Source: a virus. Taken from it: DNA of 64,000 nucleotides. The notes beneath the pieces are model-generated. The model did no database searches and had not been told where the DNA came from. It saw only the letters and a list, made by a program, of their open reading frames with translations. Position numbers and translations under genes: made by a program. The stretch is taken from IMG/VR virus record IMGVR_UViG_3300025000_000053, positions 124,001-188,000 of that record. One strand, 5' to 3'. This document shows, in pieces, positions 5,694 to 56,093 of this stretch. How positions within the stretch are numbered: the first letter of the stretch is position 1; every line of letters starts with the position of its first letter.

Positions 5694-7820
5694 CTATTTT
5701 TTATTATGTTTCAACGACATTTTAGGAATTGTTCGTAATTTATAATTTTTAACTGCTTCTTCCATAAAATAGTTATGAATATTAAATCCATTACTTACAT
5801 TATTCTTTAATAAAGAATATTTACCTTCTTTATTCATAACATATGTGTTTACATTATCTTTAAAATAATATGTTAATATGGATAAAGCTTTTATTTTTAT
5901 GTTTTCTTCTTCTAAAGGAATTAAAATTTCTACCCTTCTATCTAAATTCCTAGTAAGTAAATCAGCACTTGAAATATAAATACCACTATTATGAAAATAA
6001 TACATACGACTATGTTCTAGATATCTACCTATTACACTTCTAATAGTTATATTTTTATTAATAGGTTTCATAGAACAAATTCCTCTACAAATAATATTAA
6101 TCTTTACTCCATTTTCAGATGCAAAGTATAATTTCTTTATTATATCTTTGTCAGACAATGAATTTAATTTTAATGTAATACATGTTTTCTTTTTATTTTT
6201 AGCTTGTTTAATTTCATTATCTATCAACTGGTATATTTTATTCCTTAGATTATATGGAGCAAAATATAACTTATTAATATCTGTAGATGGTTCAGAAAAA
6301 CCTGATAATATATTAAATATATGAAGTAAGTCTTCACTTATTTTTTGATTAGAAGTGAAATAAGACAAATCTGTATAAATCTCAGATGTTTTGTCATTAT
6401 AATTACCTGTACCTAAATGAGAATATAATTTTAATCCTCCCTTATGAGTTCTTTTAACAACAACTATAAATTTACAATGAGTTTTTAATTCATCCATACC
6501 ATAAATTATTCTACAGCCAGCTAGTTTTAGTTTCTCTATTAAAGATATATTTCTATTTTCATCAAATCTAGCTTTTATTTCTAGTAAAACACTAACTTGT
6601 TTACCATTTATAGCTGCTTTACATAAAGCTTCAACTATAGGTGAATCTTTTGATGAAACTCTATATAAAGTTTGTTTAATAGCAACAACATTACTATCAA
6701 TAGAAGCATGTTCAATAAATTTTACTATTGGATCAAAACTTTCATATGGGTGATGTAATAAAATATCATTATTATCAATGGCTGTAAACATATCATGTTC
6801 ACCTATTAATTCTTGTGGATATTGAGAATTAAATTCATTATATTGTAAAATCTGATTTTTAATTGGCATAGATATAAGAAATGAATAATCCAATAAGTTA
6901 TCACTTTTAAATACATGACTTTTATTTAATTTAAACATTTTCATCAATATCTTTATTACTTGTTTAGATAAAGTATCTGTCACTTCCATAAATATAGGTT
7001 CACTATATTCTCTTAATAATAGAGAAGACTTCATTCTATCAACAAGATAAATATCTTTATCATGTTCAATTTCAATATTACCTTCTTTTAAAATTCTCAT
7101 GCATCCTTTATTTAAAATATTTTTATTAACAAATATTTTATTTAAAAATGTAAAAACAATATCCTCAAGGAATATATATTTATTTATTTCATCGTCAGTT
7201 TCAACTTTGTATAATCTTTCAAGATGTTCTATTGGTATTATAGAAATAACTTGAAGATTCTTATTATATTTATCCTCTAATGATACAATTATATTTAATT
7301 GTTTTGATTTAATAGGAGGGAATTCTTTAGTGGTATCATATGACATTGGAGTTAAAAGAGGGTAAATATTTTTATTAAATATATTCTCTATATATTCTCT
7401 TTCTTTCTTTGTTAAATTATCATACTTACAAATATGAATATTATTCTTATTGATAATTTTCAATAAATTTTTATAACTACTATTTTGTAATAACTTAAAT
7501 TCTTTAATTGATTCTAAAACCTTTTCATATTCTTCTTCATATGATAATCCAGATATATCATTATTCCTTTCATTAATAACATTATTAACTAGAGATGAAA
7601 ATCTAACCATAATAAATTCATCTAAATTACTAGAAGAAATGCCTAAAAATTTTAGTCTTTCTAATAAAGGTATTTCATCTCTAATACTTTGGTGTAAAAC
7701 CCTTTTATTAAAATCTAACCAACTTAATTCTCTATTGATATAAAAATGAGATTTATTAAAAGAATTAAATTGTTTTATTTCATTATTTAATAAGGTTGTA
7801 AAATTATCAGTTATAATCAA
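5694..7820 (-). CDS. ppk1: Polyphosphate kinase (PPK1)
   Basis: PPK1 reversibly transfers the gamma phosphate of ATP onto inorganic polyphosphate in the cytoplasm. The 708-residue product is full length for the family (bacterial PPK1 is about 690-720). It starts with the N-terminal signature FYINRELSWLDFNKRVL, then LLERLKFLGISSSNLDEF. The C-terminal catalytic phospholipase-D-like half has YSHLGTGNYN with the histidine that is autophosphorylated in characterised enzymes (about residue 468), EHSRMYYF with the second conserved histidine (about 603), and the conserved LLTRNLDRRVE. No key residue is missing. The start is TTG, with AGGGGG 9-10 nt upstream. A promoter-like motif lies 42 nt upstream. 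PPK1 is uncommon in phages; a host-derived acquisition is likely but not visible in base composition. Confidence 0.95.
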   Translation of the reverse strand: MIITDNFTTLLNNEIKQFNSFNKSHFYINRELSWLDFNKRVLHQSIRDEIPLLERLKFLGISSSNLDEFIMVRFSSLVNNVINERNNDISGLSYEEEYEKVLESIKEFKLLQNSSYKNLLKIINKNNIHICKYDNLTKKEREYIENIFNKNIYPLLTPMSYDTTKEFPPIKSKQLNIIVSLEDKYNKNLQVISIIPIEHLERLYKVETDDEINKYIFLEDIVFTFLNKIFVNKNILNKGCMRILKEGNIEIEHDKDIYLVDRMKSSLLLREYSEPIFMEVTDTLSKQVIKILMKMFKLNKSHVFKSDNLLDYSFLISMPIKNQILQYNEFNSQYPQELIGEHDMFTAIDNNDILLHHPYESFDPIVKFIEHASIDSNVVAIKQTLYRVSSKDSPIVEALCKAAINGKQVSVLLEIKARFDENRNISLIEKLKLAGCRIIYGMDELKTHCKFIVVVKRTHKGGLKLYSHLGTGNYNDKTSEIYTDLSYFTSNQKISEDLLHIFNILSGFSEPSTDINKLYFAPYNLRNKIYQLIDNEIKQAKNKKKTCITLKLNSLSDKDIIKKLYFASENGVKINIICRGICSMKPINKNITIRSVIGRYLEHSRMYYFHNSGIYISSADLLTRNLDRRVEILIPLEEENIKIKALSILTYYFKDNVNTYVMNKEGKYSLLKNNVSNGFNIHNYFMEEAVKNYKLRTIPKMSLKHNKK

Positions 7821-7861
7821 ATTTATTACCCCCTAATATTTTATTTATTAGTATTCATTGT

Positions 7862-7875
7862 TATAATATATAAAT
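7862..7875 (-). promoter_or_regulatory. Candidate phage promoter motif upstream of ppk1
   Basis: Read on the minus strand the site is ATTTATATATTATA, one mismatch from the 14-mer ATTTATATATTATT found exactly at five other places in front of minus-strand operons. It ends 42 nt before the TTG of ppk1. Confidence 0.5.
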
Positions 7876-7919
7876 AAAAAGAAGATAACTATATAGTTAT
7901 CTTCTTTTTATTTATATAT
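7866..7919. terminator. 54-bp perfect palindrome, terminator
   Basis: All 27 bp of each arm match, centred between 7892 and 7893 (AACTAT/ATAGTT at the centre). It overlaps the stop codon of the gene ending at 7912 and the promoter motif of ppk1. On the minus strand the second arm ends in a run of U and A. It most probably terminates the operon above. Confidence 0.75.
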
Positions 7920-8148
7920 AATCTTCATAGAAATATATTATTATATAAAAACCAAATATAATTAATTGAACTATATGATATTCATTTTTTATCAGACTCA
8001 AATTTAAAGTAAATGACCATGATACATTTGTAATAAAAGTAGATAATAGTAATTTCCATCCACCATATTTTTCCCTTTTAACTAAAAGAAAAATTGTTAA
8101 TAATGATAATAATATAGATAGATTACCTAAATAAAATAATTTAATCAT
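7912..8148 (-). CDS. Small two- or three-pass membrane protein
   Basis: A 78-residue protein, almost entirely hydrophobic, with predicted membrane segments near residues 4-22, 32-50 and 57-73. No family recognised. It overlaps the stop of the upstream gene by 8 nt. A small hydrophobic phage protein may be a holin, a superinfection-exclusion protein or a toxin-like inhibitor; nothing in the sequence decides between them. Its last codons lie inside the long palindrome. Confidence 0.6.
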   Translation of the reverse strand: MIKLFYLGNLSILLSLLTIFLLVKREKYGGWKLLLSTFITNVSWSFTLNLSLIKNEYHIVQLIIFGFYIIIYFYEDYI

Positions 8149-8512
8149 TTTTATTTATTTGTAAAATATGACACCATTTAAAAAATCTATCACCATAATC
8201 TGTTGATATATTGACACCTCTCCAAGTAATTGCTTTTACAATACCGTGGTTTAAATTATTTTCATAGTTATAAATAACAGTATCACCTAAATTTATTTTA
8301 TTCCGAAGTAAACCACCACATCGTTCAATAATATGTCCACAATAAATATTTTTAATTATTTTATCTTCTGCAAAAGTTAATAAATCTATTTTATCTTCTT
8401 TTAAATTAATAAATAACGGTTTGGGTATAGATAAATGTATTTTTTTAGTAGAATTTAACTCTTTGATTAAATCAGTAAATTTTTCACCATACATAACTTC
8501 TCTAATTATCAT
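8141..8512 (-). CDS. Hypothetical protein, 123 residues
   Basis: Start chosen as ATG at 8512; a TTG one codon earlier is also possible. GGGGG lies about 10 nt upstream. No family recognised. The C-terminal half (residues 80-115) contains a beta-type LGDTVIYNYEN ... GIVKAITWRGVNIS ... RFFKWCHI segment reminiscent of a KOW/SH3-like barrel, which could mean nucleic-acid or protein binding. This is inference from pattern. Confidence 0.6.
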   Translation of the reverse strand: MIIREVMYGEKFTDLIKELNSTKKIHLSIPKPLFINLKEDKIDLLTFAEDKIIKNIYCGHIIERCGGLLRNKINLGDTVIYNYENNLNHGIVKAITWRGVNISTDYGDRFFKWCHILQINKND

Positions 8513-44775: not shown

Positions 44776-45204
44776 TTAATGTAATATCATTATTGAACTA
44801 TATTCAATAAAGTTTAGTTTAACTAAAAATTTAATAAAATATTCTTTATTAATATAACCAACTTCTATTTCTTCTATTATACAATCACTTCCTTTATCTT
44901 TTAATATCTTATTAATTATTTCAATTGTTGGTTGTTCATTATTTACTATATAATCTCTTACTAGTATATTAATTCTATTAAGTAAGTTAATATTTAATAT
45001 ATTAGTTTCTTCATTAATTGAAAATAATATTTCTAATCCTACTAAGTAGCCTGTTGGTGTTTCTATTACTTTTATATCTTTCTCTTCACTTTTTCCTAAA
45101 TTAATAAAGAAATCTTTAATTATATTAGTCTTAATATTATATACAATCTTATTGTATATATAGTTTATTAACATATCATTACCAATTGTATTTATTATAT
45201 TCAT
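44776..45204 (-). CDS. Member of a row of four similar small proteins (4)
   Basis: A 142-residue protein, ATG after AAAGGGAG. It has GYLVGLEILFSINEETNILN, then LLNRINILVRDYIV and EEIEVGYINKEYFIKFLVKL. First gene of the row, behind a promoter motif and the terminator of the noncoding region. Unrecognised. Confidence 0.6.
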   Translation of the reverse strand: MNIINTIGNDMLINYIYNKIVYNIKTNIIKDFFINLGKSEEKDIKVIETPTGYLVGLEILFSINEETNILNINLLNRINILVRDYIVNNEQPTIEIINKILKDKGSDCIIEEIEVGYINKEYFIKFLVKLNFIEYSSIMILH

Positions 45205-45266
45205 AATTATTCATTCTCCCTTTTATAAAATTATTCATTATATCTTTTATATAATGTAACTTATAT

Positions 45267-45280
45267 AATAATATATAAAT
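45267..45280 (-). promoter_or_regulatory. Candidate phage promoter motif
   Basis: Exact ATTTATATATTATT on the minus strand, 63 nt upstream of the ATG at 45204 and immediately after the terminator that closes the noncoding region. Confidence 0.5.
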
Positions 45281-45286
45281 AAAAAA

Positions 45287-45342
45287 TTAGTATAAGGATA
45301 AATATATTTTCTATTATGAAAATATATTTATCCTTATACTAA
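45287..45342 (-). terminator. 25-bp terminator stem after the noncoding RNA
   Basis: A perfect 25-bp stem with a 6-nt loop (arm begins TTAGTATAAGGATAAATATA), followed on the minus strand by TTTTTTATTT. It is the strongest terminator in the window. Confidence 0.85.
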
Positions 45343-45960
45343 TCTCAAGATTATTTTTACATATAAAAATAGTGTAACTCCCTCTCCGATGGATATTATC
45401 AAGGGGGCAGTAGGGTGCTTCGTTTATATTTTTACAATATGCTTCGGTAATACTAGTGAATTGGTTTATTAATATTATTATTTGTATGTTTGCGTTAATG
45501 CTCTGTTTTATTTTTTATATTAACGATAAATGTTAATATTGGGCATATCAATTGATATGCCCAATATTTTTATCAATATGCTTTGTATTATAATTTATAT
45601 GTATATAATATTATATACATATTATTATTATTTAGAACCAGTTTAGATTAAATAAATTTATCTTTATGATATGTTTATGTATAAGTTTTTTTTAAATTTA
45701 GAATTAATCTTTCAGATTAATCAATACTTTTACCCTACTGCCCTTGAGCGATTTTCAATTATTGTCTGTTCTCACAGACAATAATCTCAATCATGGCCTA
45801 CAATTCACTCGCGTGAACGCCCCCTTGATCCAAAATCGTCAATATAAATTATGTAACGACGAATCATTACAATTGTAATTTATACTAACGATTTTACACA
45901 TCTTCATATTGATAAAAACATAAAGATGCTGGATTAATTATATGTTCAATTAAATTATTT
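45343..45960 (-). ncRNA. Large structured noncoding RNA candidate
   Basis: About 620 nt without a credible gene, richer in G and C than its surroundings at selected places. Long-range pairing is visible: 45398-45408 (ATCAAGGGGGC) with 45819-45829, a perfect 11 bp; directly next to it 45409-45416 (AGTAGGGT) with 45732-45739, a perfect 8 bp. Between the two right-hand arms lies a branch with two hairpins: 45758-45785 (11-bp stem) and 45804-45817 (TTCAC-GCGA-GTGAA on the minus strand, a GNRA tetraloop). Inside the large loop are a 34-bp palindrome (45535-45568), 45599-45620 and 45704-45720. Outside are 45832-45895 and 45899-45928. Minus-strand sense is favoured by the GNRA loop, the gene direction and the terminator at 45287. 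Size and style recall giant phage RNAs such as ROOL and GOLLD, but I cannot match it to either. Confidence 0.65.
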
Positions 45961-45976
45961 TTAATTTATTAAATTT

Positions 45977-46810
45977 TTAATAAAAAATAAAACCATTAGT
46001 ATCAAATAATTTAATCATATTATTAATAAACTTTCTAGTCATTTTATCTTTTATTTCATAATTATTTTTAAAATATATAATAAAAATCATTGATAAATTT
46101 TTACTATAAGTTTCTTGTAATATTTCTCTAAAAGATTTATCTCTATTTTTAAGTGATATCTCATCCCAATTTTTTATTATTGAATATGAGTATAATCCTA
46201 ATTTTCTTTTTTTCTTAGAAAATCCAGCTAGATGTCTAGAAAATATATAATCGGTATTAATATCACTATTCATTAATTTAAAATTATCAACCAAATTAAT
46301 ATAACTATTTAAATAATAAGGTTTCTTTTTAATATTCCCTATATTAAATGTAAAAAAAATATTATTACATTGACATGTATGTTCCTTATTTAAAATAATA
46401 ACATCTTCTAATATATAATTAGGATAAAATAAGTATAATACTGATAAGAAATTATCTAAAGGTAATTCAATAATAGGTTCACCTATTTCTTTTGATTGTA
46501 AGTTTATTTTAAATAATTTCTTATATTTATTATCTTTAAATAAAGTAAAATAACGATTATTATTTAAATCAACATGACTAATCATATTATTATCTTTATT
46601 TATTATATATTTATCATTCATAAATAAATGAATAAATTCAATATCTCTTAATAAAGCATTAAATATAACATCTAAAGAAGGTAAACCATCTTTTAATGGT
46701 GTAATAGTTATTTTATTATTTTTAATTGTATAACGCCACCATGTATAAGTTCTTCTAGTTAATCTCTTATAAGTAACAACTCTGTCTAAAATTGGATGTA
46801 TAAAATTCAT
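45977..46810 (-). CDS. Hypothetical protein, 277 residues
   Basis: Start ATG 46810 chosen because AAGGGGTG is upstream; GTG 46822 overlaps it. The protein is basic and rich in Asn, Ile and Lys. Its beginning HPILDRVVTYKRLTRRTYTWWRY and a later HLAGFSKKKRKLGLYS are basic patches that could bind nucleic acid. I do not recognise a family. Its stop lies directly before the noncoding region, so it may be transcribed together with that RNA. Confidence 0.6.
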   Translation of the reverse strand: MNFIHPILDRVVTYKRLTRRTYTWWRYTIKNNKITITPLKDGLPSLDVIFNALLRDIEFIHLFMNDKYIINKDNNMISHVDLNNNRYFTLFKDNKYKKLFKINLQSKEIGEPIIELPLDNFLSVLYLFYPNYILEDVIILNKEHTCQCNNIFFTFNIGNIKKKPYYLNSYINLVDNFKLMNSDINTDYIFSRHLAGFSKKKRKLGLYSYSIIKNWDEISLKNRDKSFREILQETYSKNLSMIFIIYFKNNYEIKDKMTRKFINNMIKLFDTNGFIFY

Positions 46811-46831
46811 AATAAAAATCACCCCTTAATT

Positions 46832-48665: not shown

Positions 48666-49433
48666 TCATTTACATAATTTATCCTTAAATTCTTCAATAA
48701 AATCTTTTGATAAAATTTGATTATGATATATCCATTCCCATTTAACATTATCTTTAAACTCTAGTATAAAATCTTCTGATAATACTTGTTTAGAGCTTAT
48801 TAAATCCCATTTAACATTATCCTTAAATTTCCTAATAAAATCTTCAGATAAAATTTGGTAAAAACTTATGTCAATCCAATCAACCTTATCTTTAAATTCA
48901 CAAATAAATTTTTCAGATAAATTCTGATTACAACTTATTGACATCCAATCAACTTTATTTTGAAATTCTCTAATAAAGTTTTCTGATAAAATCTGACAAA
49001 AACTTATTTCAATCCAATCAACTTTATTCTTAAATTCTCGTATAAATTCTTCAGATAATTTCTGTTCTGAACTTATTGATATCCAATTAACTTTATTTTG
49101 AAATTCTCTAATAAAGTTTTCTGATAAAGTCTGATGATAACTTATTTTATTCCAATTCACTTTATATATAAATTCACGAATAAAATCTTCAGATAATTTC
49201 TGATGAGACCATATTTCAATCCAATCAACCTTATTCTTAAATTCTCGTATTAATTCCTCAGATAAAAATTGAGTACAACTTATAGCTTCCCAATCAATTT
49301 TATCATTATATTTTTTAATAAATTCTTCAGATAATTTTTTATACATAGATATATTTGCCCAATTAATTATATCTTCATTACATTCAATTATATCTATAAC
49401 AATATCATCTTTCTTAATAAGAATATCATTCAT
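48666..49433 (-). CDS. 23-residue tandem repeat protein
   Basis: A 255-residue protein made of nine full and one partial copy of a 23-residue unit, L-S-E-x-F-I-R-E-F-K-x-K-V-D-W-x-x-I-S-x-x-Q-x, starting near residue 35. Such repeats occur in giant viruses and some phages and probably fold as a solenoid for protein binding. The DNA repeat (69 nt) is well preserved in the middle copies, so recent unit duplication is likely. ATG 49433 has GGTGG upstream. A promoter variant lies 45 nt upstream. Confidence 0.8.
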   Translation of the reverse strand: MNDILIKKDDIVIDIIECNEDIINWANISMYKKLSEEFIKKYNDKIDWEAISCTQFLSEELIREFKNKVDWIEIWSHQKLSEDFIREFIYKVNWNKISYHQTLSENFIREFQNKVNWISISSEQKLSEEFIREFKNKVDWIEISFCQILSENFIREFQNKVDWMSISCNQNLSEKFICEFKDKVDWIDISFYQILSEDFIRKFKDNVKWDLISSKQVLSEDFILEFKDNVKWEWIYHNQILSKDFIEEFKDKLCK

Positions 49434-49477
49434 ATTAAACAACCACCATTCATATTTTATTTATATTTTTTCATTAT

Positions 49478-50456: not shown

Positions 50457-53400
50457 TTGATTTTTATTTCTGATATACCACATTTAAAAACCTATAAGCA
50501 AAAAGTTCTATTACCTAAAGATGAGAAGTATCCTAGTATTAATAGTGTAGTTTTTATTATTAATAATAACATACAATCATCTATAGGACTATTAAACCAT
50601 CAATTTATTAAGAATAATAACATGTATCATTTTTATTTTATGGATCACGTATATAACGGTAAATTATTTAATAGAACTTTTAGAGTTTTATATCGTAATG
50701 AAAGAAATGATATTTATAATAATATAGAAAAAGAAGTTCGATTCATACAAACAGTTCTAGATTTACATTCAGTAAATAAGAAAAATATATATGTTGATTT
50801 AATAAAACATAATAGTTTATTCTTTCAATTAAGTAAAAAAGTTAATTTTACAATTCGTATTAAAAATTATATAGATTATCTAGATAAGTTAATTAATGAT
50901 AGTCATTTTAATCAGTATAAGTATAAAACTATTTGTATTGATATTAATAGTTGGGTTAGTGATTTAAAGACTCAAATAAAAGGTAAATTAAATTTTGATA
51001 ATCCAATATTTATTATTTATTATTGTATGTATAAATACCTTGAAAAATTTAAAGAACTAGGGGATATTAATATTATTTTCTATACTAATGATAGTGTATT
51101 AAGATTAAATCCTTCATTATGTGATAAAAGCTCATATTCTTTATTTAAGAAAGAGATTATCAAAGCGTCTCCTAAAAGTTTATTAGATATGAGTGAAGAT
51201 AATATTGAAAAAGTACTAAAAAGAAAAGATGTTGCTGATAAAATAATAGGATATCTTAATGACCAACATAGATTTGTTGGTGATGATAAAACTGAAGAAG
51301 ATGAAAATTTTGAAACTAGTATTGAAGATAAAGTAGATGAAATAATTGATGCTAATAAGTTAGATAATAATAGTAATGATGAGATGTATAGTGAAGTTTC
51401 AAAAGTTATTATTAATGATGATGAAATTATAAAAAAAATTCATATGATGAATCAAGAGAATAAAGTTGGTAGAAGTACAGCTTCTATTAAAAGGGACGAA
51501 GAATTAAGAAAAAGACAAAAAGAGATAATAAAAGATAAAATAGGAATAGATAATATCTATGAAACTAATAAAGAACAACTAGATATTCCTAAATTTGATG
51601 TTACAGATAAAGTTAATACTACTAATAAAAATGTAACTACTATAAGATATCCTCAATTTGAAAAAGCTTATAATGAAGTTCTTCATGAAAAGGATTTACT
51701 TAATAATATAAAATTTTTAAATGAAAAATCTATTCCAGTTTATATTAGAGGTATAGAACGAGTTGATTCATCCGATGAATTAAATTTAAAAGAAACATAT
51801 ACTTTTGATTTAGAAGATGAAAATAGAGTTAGGCATAAATTAAAATTTGATATCCCTAAATTTATAGATGATAAATTTTTATATCTTGGTGGTAATAAAA
51901 AGATTATTATGAAGCAATTATTTATGAAGCCAGTGGTTAAGACTGGACCAGATGAAGTACAGATTTGTACTAATTACAATAAGATGTTTATTAGACGCTA
52001 TGGTAATAAAATATCATCTAAAATAGAAAAAATGAGAAAATTATTATATGAACAAAAAGAAGGTAAAGGTATTAAAGTTAAATATGGTAATAATTTATCT
52101 ATTAATAACAAATATGATACTACTATAGAATATGATGAATTATCTAAAAGCTTTACTTATATCCGTATAGGTAAAACTGAATTTTATTTTAATCAAGATG
52201 ATGCTACAAATATAGTTAAAGATAAAAAAATAAAACTTAATCAAAATGAATTCTTATTAGGTCTTATTGAAAATGGTAAAAATCCAATACCTATTACAAT
52301 TGATAAAAATACTCAAAAAATAGGCACATCTTTCGATATAGTTGACTATATACTTTCTATGTTGACACAAGGATTAGTGCAAGATTTTGATGATACTAAA
52401 AGTGGTAAGAAATTTGTTTACACTAGAGCTTATATAATGGAAAGACATGTTCCAGTAGTTTTGTTAATTTCATTCTTAGAAGGTTTATCTACAGTAATAA
52501 AAAAAGCTAATATTAAACATTATTTTTCAGATAAAAGACCTAAAGATATTACTCATAATGAGGGAATAATTCAATTTAGTGACGGGTATTTAATATATGA
52601 AAAATATCCATTTGAAAATTCTTTATTAATGAATGCATTTGCAGATATTCCAACTAAAACTTTCGAATATGGTGAATTTGATTCAAAAGATGTTTATTTA
52701 TCTTTATTTGATACTTTATATGGTAATAGGATAATTGGTAATGCCTTTCTTAACTCATATGAATTTTTAATTGATCCTATTACAAGAGAAGTATTAGAAG
52801 ATTTAAACTATCCAACAGATTATGTTTCTTTAGTTTTATATGCTAATTCTTTATTAGCAACTAATTCATATATTAAAGAAAATAATATGAATTTATATAG
52901 AATAAGATCAAATGAACTGGTTAATGCCTTATTATATAAAGAAGTTGCTAATGCTTATATTAAGTATAGAACTACTTCTTTAAATAATAATCCTGTTAAA
53001 ATTTCTGTACCACAAGATGTTATTATTAAAAAGATACTTGTTGCACAGACAGTCGAGGACTACAGCACATTAAATCCTATAACCGAAGTCGAGAAATCCC
53101 GTATGATCAGTCCAAAAGGACATTCAGGAATGAACCTGGATGAAGCGTATACACAAGATAAAAGAGCATATGATAAAACGATGCTTGGTATAATAGCTAT
53201 GTCAACTTCACCGGATTCATCGTGTGGAGTAACAAGACAACTTACATTAGAACCCAATATAAAAAATCCGAGGGGATATATCGATATAAATGACGATAGA
53301 TTAGAAATTTTAAAAGATGCAAATCTATTTTCTCCAGCTGAATTATTATCTCCTCTCGGAAATACAAGGGATGAACTTGCTATTGTCCCACTATGTAGAA

Positions 53401-56093
53401 ATATATAGTTAAAAACTCTTCTAATTGTCGGGGACATCCTTAACGCTCTTATTACCAAACTAATATAGTAATATATTAGTGGTGAAGGGTAATGCCTTAG
53501 GTATGGTAACAAGATAAGAGATTGGGTTATCCGCAGCTAAGATTCCTATAAATTTTATAGGAATAAAGTTCAAAGACTATCGAAAGCATGTTTATTATTG
53601 ATATAAAATATAATAAACAGAAGTGAGTAGAGTAGGGAAACCGAAACGGAGAGCATCTGAACACATAATGGTGAAGATGATGATATAGTCTGTCACTTAT
53701 GGAAATCATAGGTGGTTCCTGGATAGCATAAGAACAGCGATAAATAAAACTTGTCGCATTATCTAGTAATAGATAAATAAAAAATCTCCTTAATTGTCGG
53801 GAAATCTCTTAGAGCCTAAAACTACTAAGTTATATTAGTAATAATATAATGGCTTAGTCTAATCAACTAAGGTATAGTAATAAGGTTTTAGGATTGAGTA
53901 ATCCGCAGCTAAGATTCTAATATATTAGAATAAAGTTCAACGACTATCGAAGGCAAACTTATTATAGAAATAAAAATATAATGAGTTTGTTAGTAGAGTA
54001 GGGCTCAAGTGAGTTCTGAAATGGGAGACTCCTTATTATTTAATAATAAGGATGAAGATATAGTCTTATATCCTAAGGAAACTTAGGGAAGTTCATAAAA
54101 GAACTGCATAGATTAACGATCTATGTGAAATAAATGGAGTGTAAAACAATCGAAACATATCGTACCTGTAGTTAAACAATCACCAGTTTTATTATCTAAT
54201 GGAGTTGAACAAGTTATTCAATATCACTTATCTGATGATTTTTCAGTTGTAGCTAAAGATGATGGTGAAGTTGTTGAGATAGATAGTGAAACTGGTTTAA
54301 TTATTATTAAATATAAAAATGGTGAAACTAAAGTAATTGATACAAGTCCAAAAGTTGTAAAAAATGGTAAACTAAATGCCCACTTATATGGTGACATATA
54401 TGTGAATCTTCTTTAATTGTCGGGGAAACTCTTAGAACTTTTTATTATATAATAAAAAGATTGAGTAATCCGCAGCCAAGTCTCATAGTAAAAAAAATAA
54501 AGTTCATGAAGAACTCTATTACAAAGATATTGGAAAATTTTATAAAAAATCAAATACTCCATGGTATTTTATTGTATAACAAAGTTGATGATGAGTTGAT
54601 CTGAGTTCTTTTTTAATAATTTTAAAATCTATATCTATCAAATATTTCTCTAATAAGGGAAGTGTTTCTTCAATGAATATATTAAAAAGTTCTAAGTTCT
54701 TTTTAGCTATGAAAAAGTCACTAATTTTTTTGATATCATTATTATATCTTTTTAGTTCATTTTCATACCTCTGGGTAAAGAATTTTTTAGTTAATTCTAT
54801 CGATATAGGATTACAAAACTCATCACTTAACTCATTAATATTCCTCATTATAATATCTTTGTAATTAATTTCTCCTTGCTTCATTTTATTTATCATTCCT
54901 TTCTTTTTTATATTACGTAAATAATATATAAATGAAAAATAATGAAATACTATGAGAAAGGTTCAACGACTATCCCTTTGGCTTTGAAATAAGCAATAGG
55001 AGTAGGGCTCAAGTGAGTGGGTGAGAATCCCTTAAATCGAAATAGGAAGCATCCTTATGAGATGAAGATATAGTCTAGTATCTTATCGAAAGATAAGGAA
55101 GTTCATAAGAGAACTGCATAGATTAACGACCTATGTGAATATATATCGGCTGGTGGTTTCTTCTTATCAAATAAATTAACATGTAATTTGAAAGTAGGGC
55201 AAAAAATAAAAAAACGAGATATATTAGCTTATGACAGTAACTTTTTTAGTAATAGTAAATTATATGGTAATAGATTCAATATTGGTTCATTACAGAAAAT
55301 AGCGTGTATGTCCTCATACTCAACATATGAGGATTCTACTTTTGTCACTAAGAAATTATGTGAAGATATGGCAACTGAGATTGTTATGGAAAAACCAGTT
55401 GTCTTAGGTAAAAATGCTAATGTTGATTATATTGTTGAAATAGGTCAAAATGTTAGTGTTGGTGATGAACTAATTAGATTTGAAGTTTCTTTTAAAGATG
55501 AATCACTAAATAAATTTCTTTCAAATATTGGAGATGAATTAAAAGAAGAAATTAAAGCAATGGGTAAAACACCTATTAAAACTAAATACTCTGGTGTAAT
55601 TGAAGACATTAAAGTATATTCAACTGTAGATGTAGAAGAACTATCTCCAACATTAAAAAAAATTGTTAATAATTATTATGATAGAATTAATAAGAAGAAA
55701 AAAATTATTAATAAATATAATAAAAGTGATTCTGTATATAAATGTGGTATAATGTTAAATGAACCTGTAACTAAGATTGAAACTAAAGATGGTAAAGTTA
55801 AAAGTCATACTGTTAATTCAGGAGTTTTAATTATATTTTATATTAAATATAAAGATACAGTTGGTGTTGGTGATAAGATATGTTTCTTTACTGCTTTGAA
55901 ATCTATTGTCGGTGAAGTTATCCCTGAAGGATATGAACCATATTCTTTATTTAGACCAGATGAGAAGATTTCTTCAGTGGTTGCTCCAGGAGCAGTAATG
56001 AATAGAATGACCCCTTCTGTTATTCTATCAATGTTCGGTAATAAAGTATTGATAGAATTAAAACGAAAATTAAAAGATATTTATGATGAATAA
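50457..56093 (+). CDS. RNA polymerase beta subunit, four exons split by three group I introns
   Basis: Full-length beta subunit of the phage multisubunit RNA polymerase, about 1369 residues after splicing. Exons: 50457-53372, 53722-53741 (20 nt), 54140-54368 and 55149-56093. Exon 1 has the long N-terminal lobes and ends in MSTSPDSSCGVTRQL, NPRGYID and ELLSPLGNTRD. The joined sequence reads TRD-DSIRTAI-VKQSKHIVPVVKQSP, matching the conserved beta block around RTA-M and KQSKH. Exon 3 ends SPKVVKNG and exon 4 begins AGGFFLSNKL, then LKVGQKIKKRDILAYD. The active-site GDK block is VGVGDKICF and the C-terminal block GAVMNRMTPSVIL. It starts at TTG 50457. Its beta-prime partners are at 10833 and 22015. 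Confidence 0.93.
53373..53721 (+). ncRNA. Group I intron 1 of the beta gene
   Basis: A 349-nt intron. GGGAU at the exon end pairs with GUCCC (P1, terminal U-G), and GCUAUU just before it pairs perfectly with GAUAGC, the start of the next exon (P10). P2 is ACTAT ... ATAGT. Core pieces TAATTGTCGGGG, TATCCGCAGCTAAG, AAGTTCAAAGACTATCG and GATATAGTC follow. The intron ends in G. It is the most divergent of the four RNA polymerase introns. No endonuclease frame. Confidence 0.9.
53742..54139 (+). ncRNA. Group I intron 2 of the beta gene
   Basis: A 398-nt intron. GCGAU pairs with GUCGC 12 nt on (P1, terminal U-G). P2 is a perfect TTATCTA-GTAA-TAGATAA hairpin with a GNRA-type loop. The core carries TTAATTGTCGGG, AATCCGCAGCTAAG, AGTTCAACGACTATCG and GATATAGTCTTATATC. 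The end is placed at G54139, because this restores VKQSKHIVPVV in frame. Confidence 0.88.
54540..54896 (-). CDS. Antisense protein gene inside beta intron 3
   Basis: A 118-residue frame on the strand opposite to the intron. A ribosome binding site (AAAGGA) precedes two possible ATG codons (54896 and 54884). The product is helical and acidic to neutral and ends with LRSTHHQLCYTIKYHGVFDF. It has no LAGLIDADG, GIY-YIG or HNH motif, so it is not a recognisable homing endonuclease. It has its own copy of the phage promoter motif, 24 nt upstream. Function unknown. Confidence 0.65.
   Translation of the reverse strand: MINKMKQGEINYKDIIMRNINELSDEFCNPISIELTKKFFTQRYENELKRYNNDIKKISDFFIAKKNLELFNIFIEETLPLLEKYLIDIDFKIIKKELRSTHHQLCYTIKYHGVFDFL
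54920..54933 (-). promoter_or_regulatory. Candidate phage promoter motif inside beta intron 3
   Basis: Exact ATTTATATATTATT on the minus strand, 24 nt before the antisense gene. The bases next to it (TTTCATTTATATATTATTT then ACGTAATA) are nearly those at 10797. Confidence 0.5.

Follow-up and report, generated by a model that had tools for sequence, protein, structure and literature searches.

A large structured noncoding RNA probably encoded, under a predicted late promoter, by an AR9-like jumbo phage

Results

Locus and gene context

A 64,000-nucleotide stretch of viral DNA (the window; G000:C1:124001-188000 of a 249,853-base virus record) probably encodes a large structured noncoding RNA (~655 nt) that has its own predicted late promoter and intrinsic terminator and would most likely act in trans. 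The evidence, all of it read from sequence, consists of a promoter match, a terminator, a fold with a preferred strand and the conservation of that fold. The source record is an AR9/PBS1-like jumbo phage, the nearest relatives of its RNA polymerase beta gene being those of Listeria phage LPJP1, Goe21, Staphylococcus jumbo phages, PBS1 and AR9. The element was also found in the same gene context in a related phage (G002, here also called L012). The coordinates of all features are given in Table 1.

A coding reading of the element was rejected, since no small ORF on the RNA strand is common to both phages. ATG-started ORFs longer than 22 amino acids are absent from the RNA strand of the window phage and of L012, and the window/L012 indels within the element have lengths that are not multiples of three. 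The first-pass annotation of this DNA had described the element as occupying the only long gene-free region, which is incorrect: the stretch at 53513-54539, where two group I introns lie at the RNA polymerase gene, exceeds the element's gap in length. The two Intron_gpI matches at the RNA polymerase beta gene lie within window positions 53368-54088; further group I introns were found in L105 (four) and L110 (one, L110:152-443). Elsewhere in the window, positions 48666-49442 encode a protein built from repeats of the kind LSEDFIREFKDKVDW, which matches several PHROG families of unknown function.

Table 1. Features of the predicted RNA gene and its surroundings (window coordinates)
Feature	Coordinates	Strand	Observation
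p281, gene for a 281-amino-acid protein	45977..46822	-	Upstream neighbour of the element in 3/3 phages
Late promoter AACATATAATTA (AACA-N6-TA), predicted start 45935	45935..45946	-	Matches AR9 late consensus; identical in L012
Predicted noncoding RNA, ~655 nt	45281..45935	-	Fold z -13, L012 homologue, no shared ORF
P1, 5' hairpin	45898..45929	-	13 pairs kept in L012
P2, long hairpin, UUCG loop (L012: UAUG)	45831..45896	-	Every consensus pair kept in L012; one-sided G-U/A-U exchanges
5' strand of P4, UCAAGG (distal site), paired to 45399-45404	45823..45828	-	Invariant in L012
P5 hairpin GGC-GUUCAC-GCGA-GUGAAU-UGUAG-GCC, GNRA loop	45795..45821	-	GNRA kept in L012
P6 hairpin, GNRA loop	45750..45792	-	Three consecutive double changes relative to L012
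CUCAAGGGCAGUAGGG: P7 5' strand (45733-45743) and second UCAAGG (proximal site)	45733..45748	-	Double change relative to L012
Variable A+U-rich linker closed by P7	45417..45731	-	Mostly 67.9% identical to L012, 62 gap columns
3' strand CCCUACUGCCCCCUUGA	45399..45415	-	Pairs with P7, then P4, uninterrupted
3' tail motif UCCAUCGGAGAGGGA, short hairpin	45379..45393	-	Loop identical in L012
Intrinsic terminator, hairpin 45287-45340 and U-rich tract	45281..45342	-	Near-perfect hairpin in window; kept in L012
Early promoter TATATATTAT of next gene, outside the RNA	45268..45277	-	Matches AR9 early consensus

Promoter, terminator and transcription unit

Late promoters of AR9 have the consensus AACA-(6N)-TA/G, the last base being the transcription start, and its early promoters the consensus AAATATATATTAT-(6N)-G (PMC5312081). 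A late-type motif was found at the 5' end of the element (45946-45935) and is kept in L012. In this genome the late and early motifs both occupy the positions expected of promoters. Gene-free late-motif sites in the window are located 37-58 nt ahead of an ORF start in 11 of 21 cases, and in the rest of this genome 33 late sites lie 25-80 nt before ORFs versus 13 at 80-135 nt (29 versus 9 and 42 versus 8 in two relatives). From the element's late promoter to the next ORF start the distance is 742 nt. More late motifs lie within the RNA span, two of them on the minus strand and a third, at 45917, on the plus strand. At the other end, the terminator differs from that of L012 by double changes at alignment columns 609/666 and 619/656. 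Early-type TATATATTAT sites in the window are all (9/9) outside genes, six of the nine being 46-81 nt before an ORF.

Late promoter, ~655-nt RNA and terminator hairpin thus appear to make up a complete predicted transcription unit. We infer that the RNA would be transcribed late in infection, from its own promoter, by the phage non-virion RNA polymerase, and that transcription would end at the intrinsic terminator, before the next operon. The first-pass annotation had proposed a stand-alone minus-strand RNA, about 600 nt long and ending at a terminator of its own; this proposal is supported by the terminator, by the conservation of the late promoter, by a homologue in which pairing is preserved and by the lack of a fitting Rfam family up to E = 10.

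The p281 stop codon is ~30 nt ahead of the late promoter, and because no strong terminator is apparent between the two, the RNA could be a 3' UTR: the tail of an operon that ends in p281, protecting or processing the mRNA, and not a separate gene. That the element directly follows p281 in all three phages (3/3) agrees with such a tail. We nevertheless regard it as unlikely, since a conserved late promoter is located exactly at the 5' end of the element and a branched structure of 655 nt exceeds what mRNA protection needs.

Predicted fold of the RNA

The minus strand folds with -161 kcal/mol, versus -98 +/- 5 in shuffles (z -13.1); for the plus strand of the same region z is -11.5. In the examined parts of this genome, no other gene-free gap of at least 350 nt folds as strongly. 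According to the prediction, two 5' hairpins would be followed by a four-way junction of P4, P5, P6 and P7, presumably formed in three dimensions, and then by a short 3' hairpin. P7 would close a long A+U-rich loop, free to vary in the way expected of a linker. The linker of the window phage contains a 34-nt perfect palindrome (45535-45568), which is absent from L012. The P5 hairpin has a predicted probability of 0.81-0.99, its basal GGC/GCC pairs of only 0.33-0.37.

Long-range pairing was scored as a composite, i.e., two helices sharing one uninterrupted strand, with 200 dinucleotide shuffles as the control. In the element, positions 45398-45408 (ATCAAGGGGGC) pair with 45819-45829 over 11 bp and positions 45405-45416 with 45732-45743 over 12 bp. 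The strongest composite scores 49, while the shuffles average 32.5 and reach a maximum of 43 (n=200). An equally strong single helix arises in 2 of 200 shuffles, so it is the composite that is the unusual part. The 3' strand of L012 can pair as well at 17 of 17 positions, one of them as G-U. Most structural details of the first-pass annotation hold: the 11-bp branch between 45398-45416 and 45819-45829 was given with correct coordinates and pairing, the 8 bp noted with 45732-45739 are contained in the 12-bp helix, the GCGA tetraloop is present on the minus strand, closed by TTCAC/GTGAA, and the region is indeed highly structured, as the minus-strand z and a composite pairing unmatched in 200 shuffles both indicate.

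Conservation of base pairing in the related phage

The 5' and 3' cores of the element are 88% identical between the window and L012, versus 68% for the linker. A consensus structure of 128 pairs was chosen using both sequences; seven of these pairs are double-changed and kept, and none is broken bar one that is gapped, a lack of broken pairs that is biased because both sequences were used in choosing the fold. When the fold was predicted from the window sequence only, 28 substituted pairs were broken versus 49.7 +/- 4.3 expected (0/5000 shuffles), and 7 double changes were seen versus 5.0 expected (P = 0.23). With a fold from L012 only, the corresponding numbers were 23 broken pairs versus 49.2 expected, and 9 double changes versus 4.4 expected (P = 0.02). 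The count of double changes is, on its own, a weak indication of a conserved fold, but the deficit of broken pairs is a strong one, with the qualification that the pair shuffle spreads substitutions evenly and so overstates the significance, because the core evolves slowly and is perhaps conserved for other reasons.

Compensatory changes, the absence of which from homologues had been named beforehand as speaking against the RNA, were found in L012 at three consecutive P6 pairs and at one P7 pair; the latter is a change from G-C to A-U (columns 198/539), and a further P7 pair is G-C in one phage and G-U in the other. The P6 loop is GAGA in the window and GUGA in L012, still a GNRA loop, and the P5 loop changes from GCGA to GAGA. 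The 40-nt segment of P1 is only 57.5% identical, with five one-sided changes, all of which pair through G-U on the minus strand. Pairing is thus kept despite sequence change in the two sequences compared, as would be expected of a conserved structured RNA.

Alternative pairing at the junction

The first-pass annotation had also pointed to an alternative pairing of CAAGGG with CCCTTG, and this pairing is present (45401-45406/45741-45746). Neither UCAAGG copy differs between the two phages, and either can pair with one and the same CCUUGA. Distal pairing makes up ~98% of the predicted ensemble for the window, and proximal pairing 99% of that for L012; the distal P4 pairing has a predicted probability of 0.90-0.98 in the window versus 0.003 in L012. 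As modelled, the two-copy arrangement permits a strand-exchanging junction.

Because two UCAAGG copies compete for one CCUUGA, the RNA may have two conformations, and its junction could act as a switch that exchanges between them, possibly upon binding something. The invariance of both copies and the predicted preference for a different copy in each phage would fit a switch. We think it improbable, however, given that the opposite preferences may reflect model error, that invariant copies yield no covariation and that no expression platform is evident.

p281 and the counterpart in a third phage

Of the phages searched, only the window phage, G002 (the L012 phage) and a third, more distant phage, G003, whose RNA polymerase is 66% identical, were found to carry p281. 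The protein has no match in Pfam or the PDB, and structure prediction for it gave a poor model (mean pLDDT 51). In G003, a late-promoter motif lies within 9 nt of the p281 homologue and is followed by a structured stretch of ~260 nt (z -6.0) and then by a terminator. This element (L085:18311-18585) carries a 12-nt direct repeat, GGGGGACCGTAC. It was rejected as a recognisable homologue, as its sequence is different and its covariance score (5.5 bits, E 0.69) is not significant; it could be either an orthologue that diverges fast or an independent RNA.

p281 could bind the RNA, the pair acting together in late infection as a dedicated RNA-protein module, as is suggested by its occurrence in just three phages, in all of which a structured element with a late-promoter motif lies directly downstream. 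We consider this quite unlikely: only three genomes are involved, the third element differs in sequence, and p281 has neither a recognisable domain nor a well-predicted structure. A more specific form, a lineage-specific and so far undescribed ribonucleoprotein made of p281 and a fast-evolving late RNA at a syntenic site, whose junction exchanges between two pairings, appears quite doubtful too. It is very improbable that the element acts as DNA, in a replication or packaging site where the hairpins matter as such; perfect palindromes and inverted repeats would suit such a site, but one-sided changes keep pairing only via G-U on the minus strand and give A-C mismatches on the plus strand, GNRA loops are kept, and a promoter and a terminator frame the element.

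Distribution and comparison with known RNA families

Two gapped patterns searched for in viral contigs matched the L012 phage alone; L001-L003, from an exact 17-mer scan of viral contigs, are unrelated chance matches. A pattern scan of 84,980 bacterial and archaeal genomes gave no further member, its one match (L141) being a chance match within a coding gene in DNA of 62% GC. A looser pattern gave at least 119 stretches, with no covariance match among 80 of them. Blast searches against phages and plasmids yielded short weak matches only. The covariance search of 50 phage records recovered L012 only, with other weak matches in apparently coding DNA; AR9, Goe21, LPJP1, S6 and JD-Fnp1 were among the records without a real match. 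An antisense role toward another phage gene was rejected, no long complementary stretch being found elsewhere in the genome.

A covariance check against ROOL, GOLLD, OLE and HEARO, as the first-pass annotation had proposed, gave no match over 44800-46200, either at gathering scores or at E <= 10. Intron_gpI did not match there either (E <= 10), and at gathering scores no Rfam family fits the element. Weak Rfam matches to Plastid-psbA-2, VrrA and microRNAs were discarded as A+U-rich hairpins far below gathering scores; large phage RNAs are absent from the weak matches up to E = 10. Type III toxin-antitoxin RNAs are tandem-repeat RNAs adjoining a ToxN-like gene; this assignment was rejected, as the direct repeats here are limited to two short ones of two copies each, of which one lies outside the RNA, and p281 is without a family match. 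The suggestion that the RNA represents a new class is reasonable, but it draws on two sequences. From its sequence, the element is a real candidate for a structured noncoding RNA of narrow distribution, new in family and familiar in kind.

ROOL forms an octameric RNA-only cage. Like the element, ROOL RNAs are borne by phages and prophages, have a similar length (659 nt for env-120) and combine a conserved fold with a variable linker (PMC12286853); unlike it, they are often near tRNA islands, whereas ARAGORN found no tRNA genes here, either in the window or in the parts of this genome searched beyond it. GOLLD, likewise large and found in phages, also combines a conserved part with a variable one, and its expression rises at lysis (PMC12286853), the element being under a predicted late promoter; many GOLLD RNAs are, however, longer than 800 nt, as against ~655 nt here. 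Intergenic noncoding RNAs were also found by Grad-seq for phiKZ, another jumbo phage from this broad group, though a candidate described there is ~100 nt, with no stated relation to the element (PMC8545117). AR9 late transcription units have the same promoter motif and operon-end terminators (PMC5312081), but AR9's own genome has no match to the element. Of the possible modes of action, the RNA would most likely work in trans, as a folded scaffold or a ribonucleoprotein in the manner of ROOL and GOLLD.

Implications

A second structured noncoding element is present at L101:857-1460 and L110:1183-1767 of this virus, outside the window, and at L135:13745-14085 of G002; its copies share 87-91% identity, a terminator and a core, GGATGGGGACACTATCGGTTTAGAATA, that does not vary, and have no Rfam match. 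In a more distant relative (G014), a gene-free stretch, L122:7783-8483, is strongly folded (z -17; -5.9 for 7800-8300) and gave no Rfam match at E <= 5. The second conserved candidate in the same genomes suggests that such RNAs are more numerous in jumbo phages than database listings show.

To our knowledge, few large structured phage RNAs are known, and the best studied of them, ROOL and GOLLD, are still without a function. A new RNA of this kind, under a recognisable late promoter in a jumbo phage that has an RNA polymerase of its own, would provide an independent case for the timing of expression, together with a candidate partner protein.
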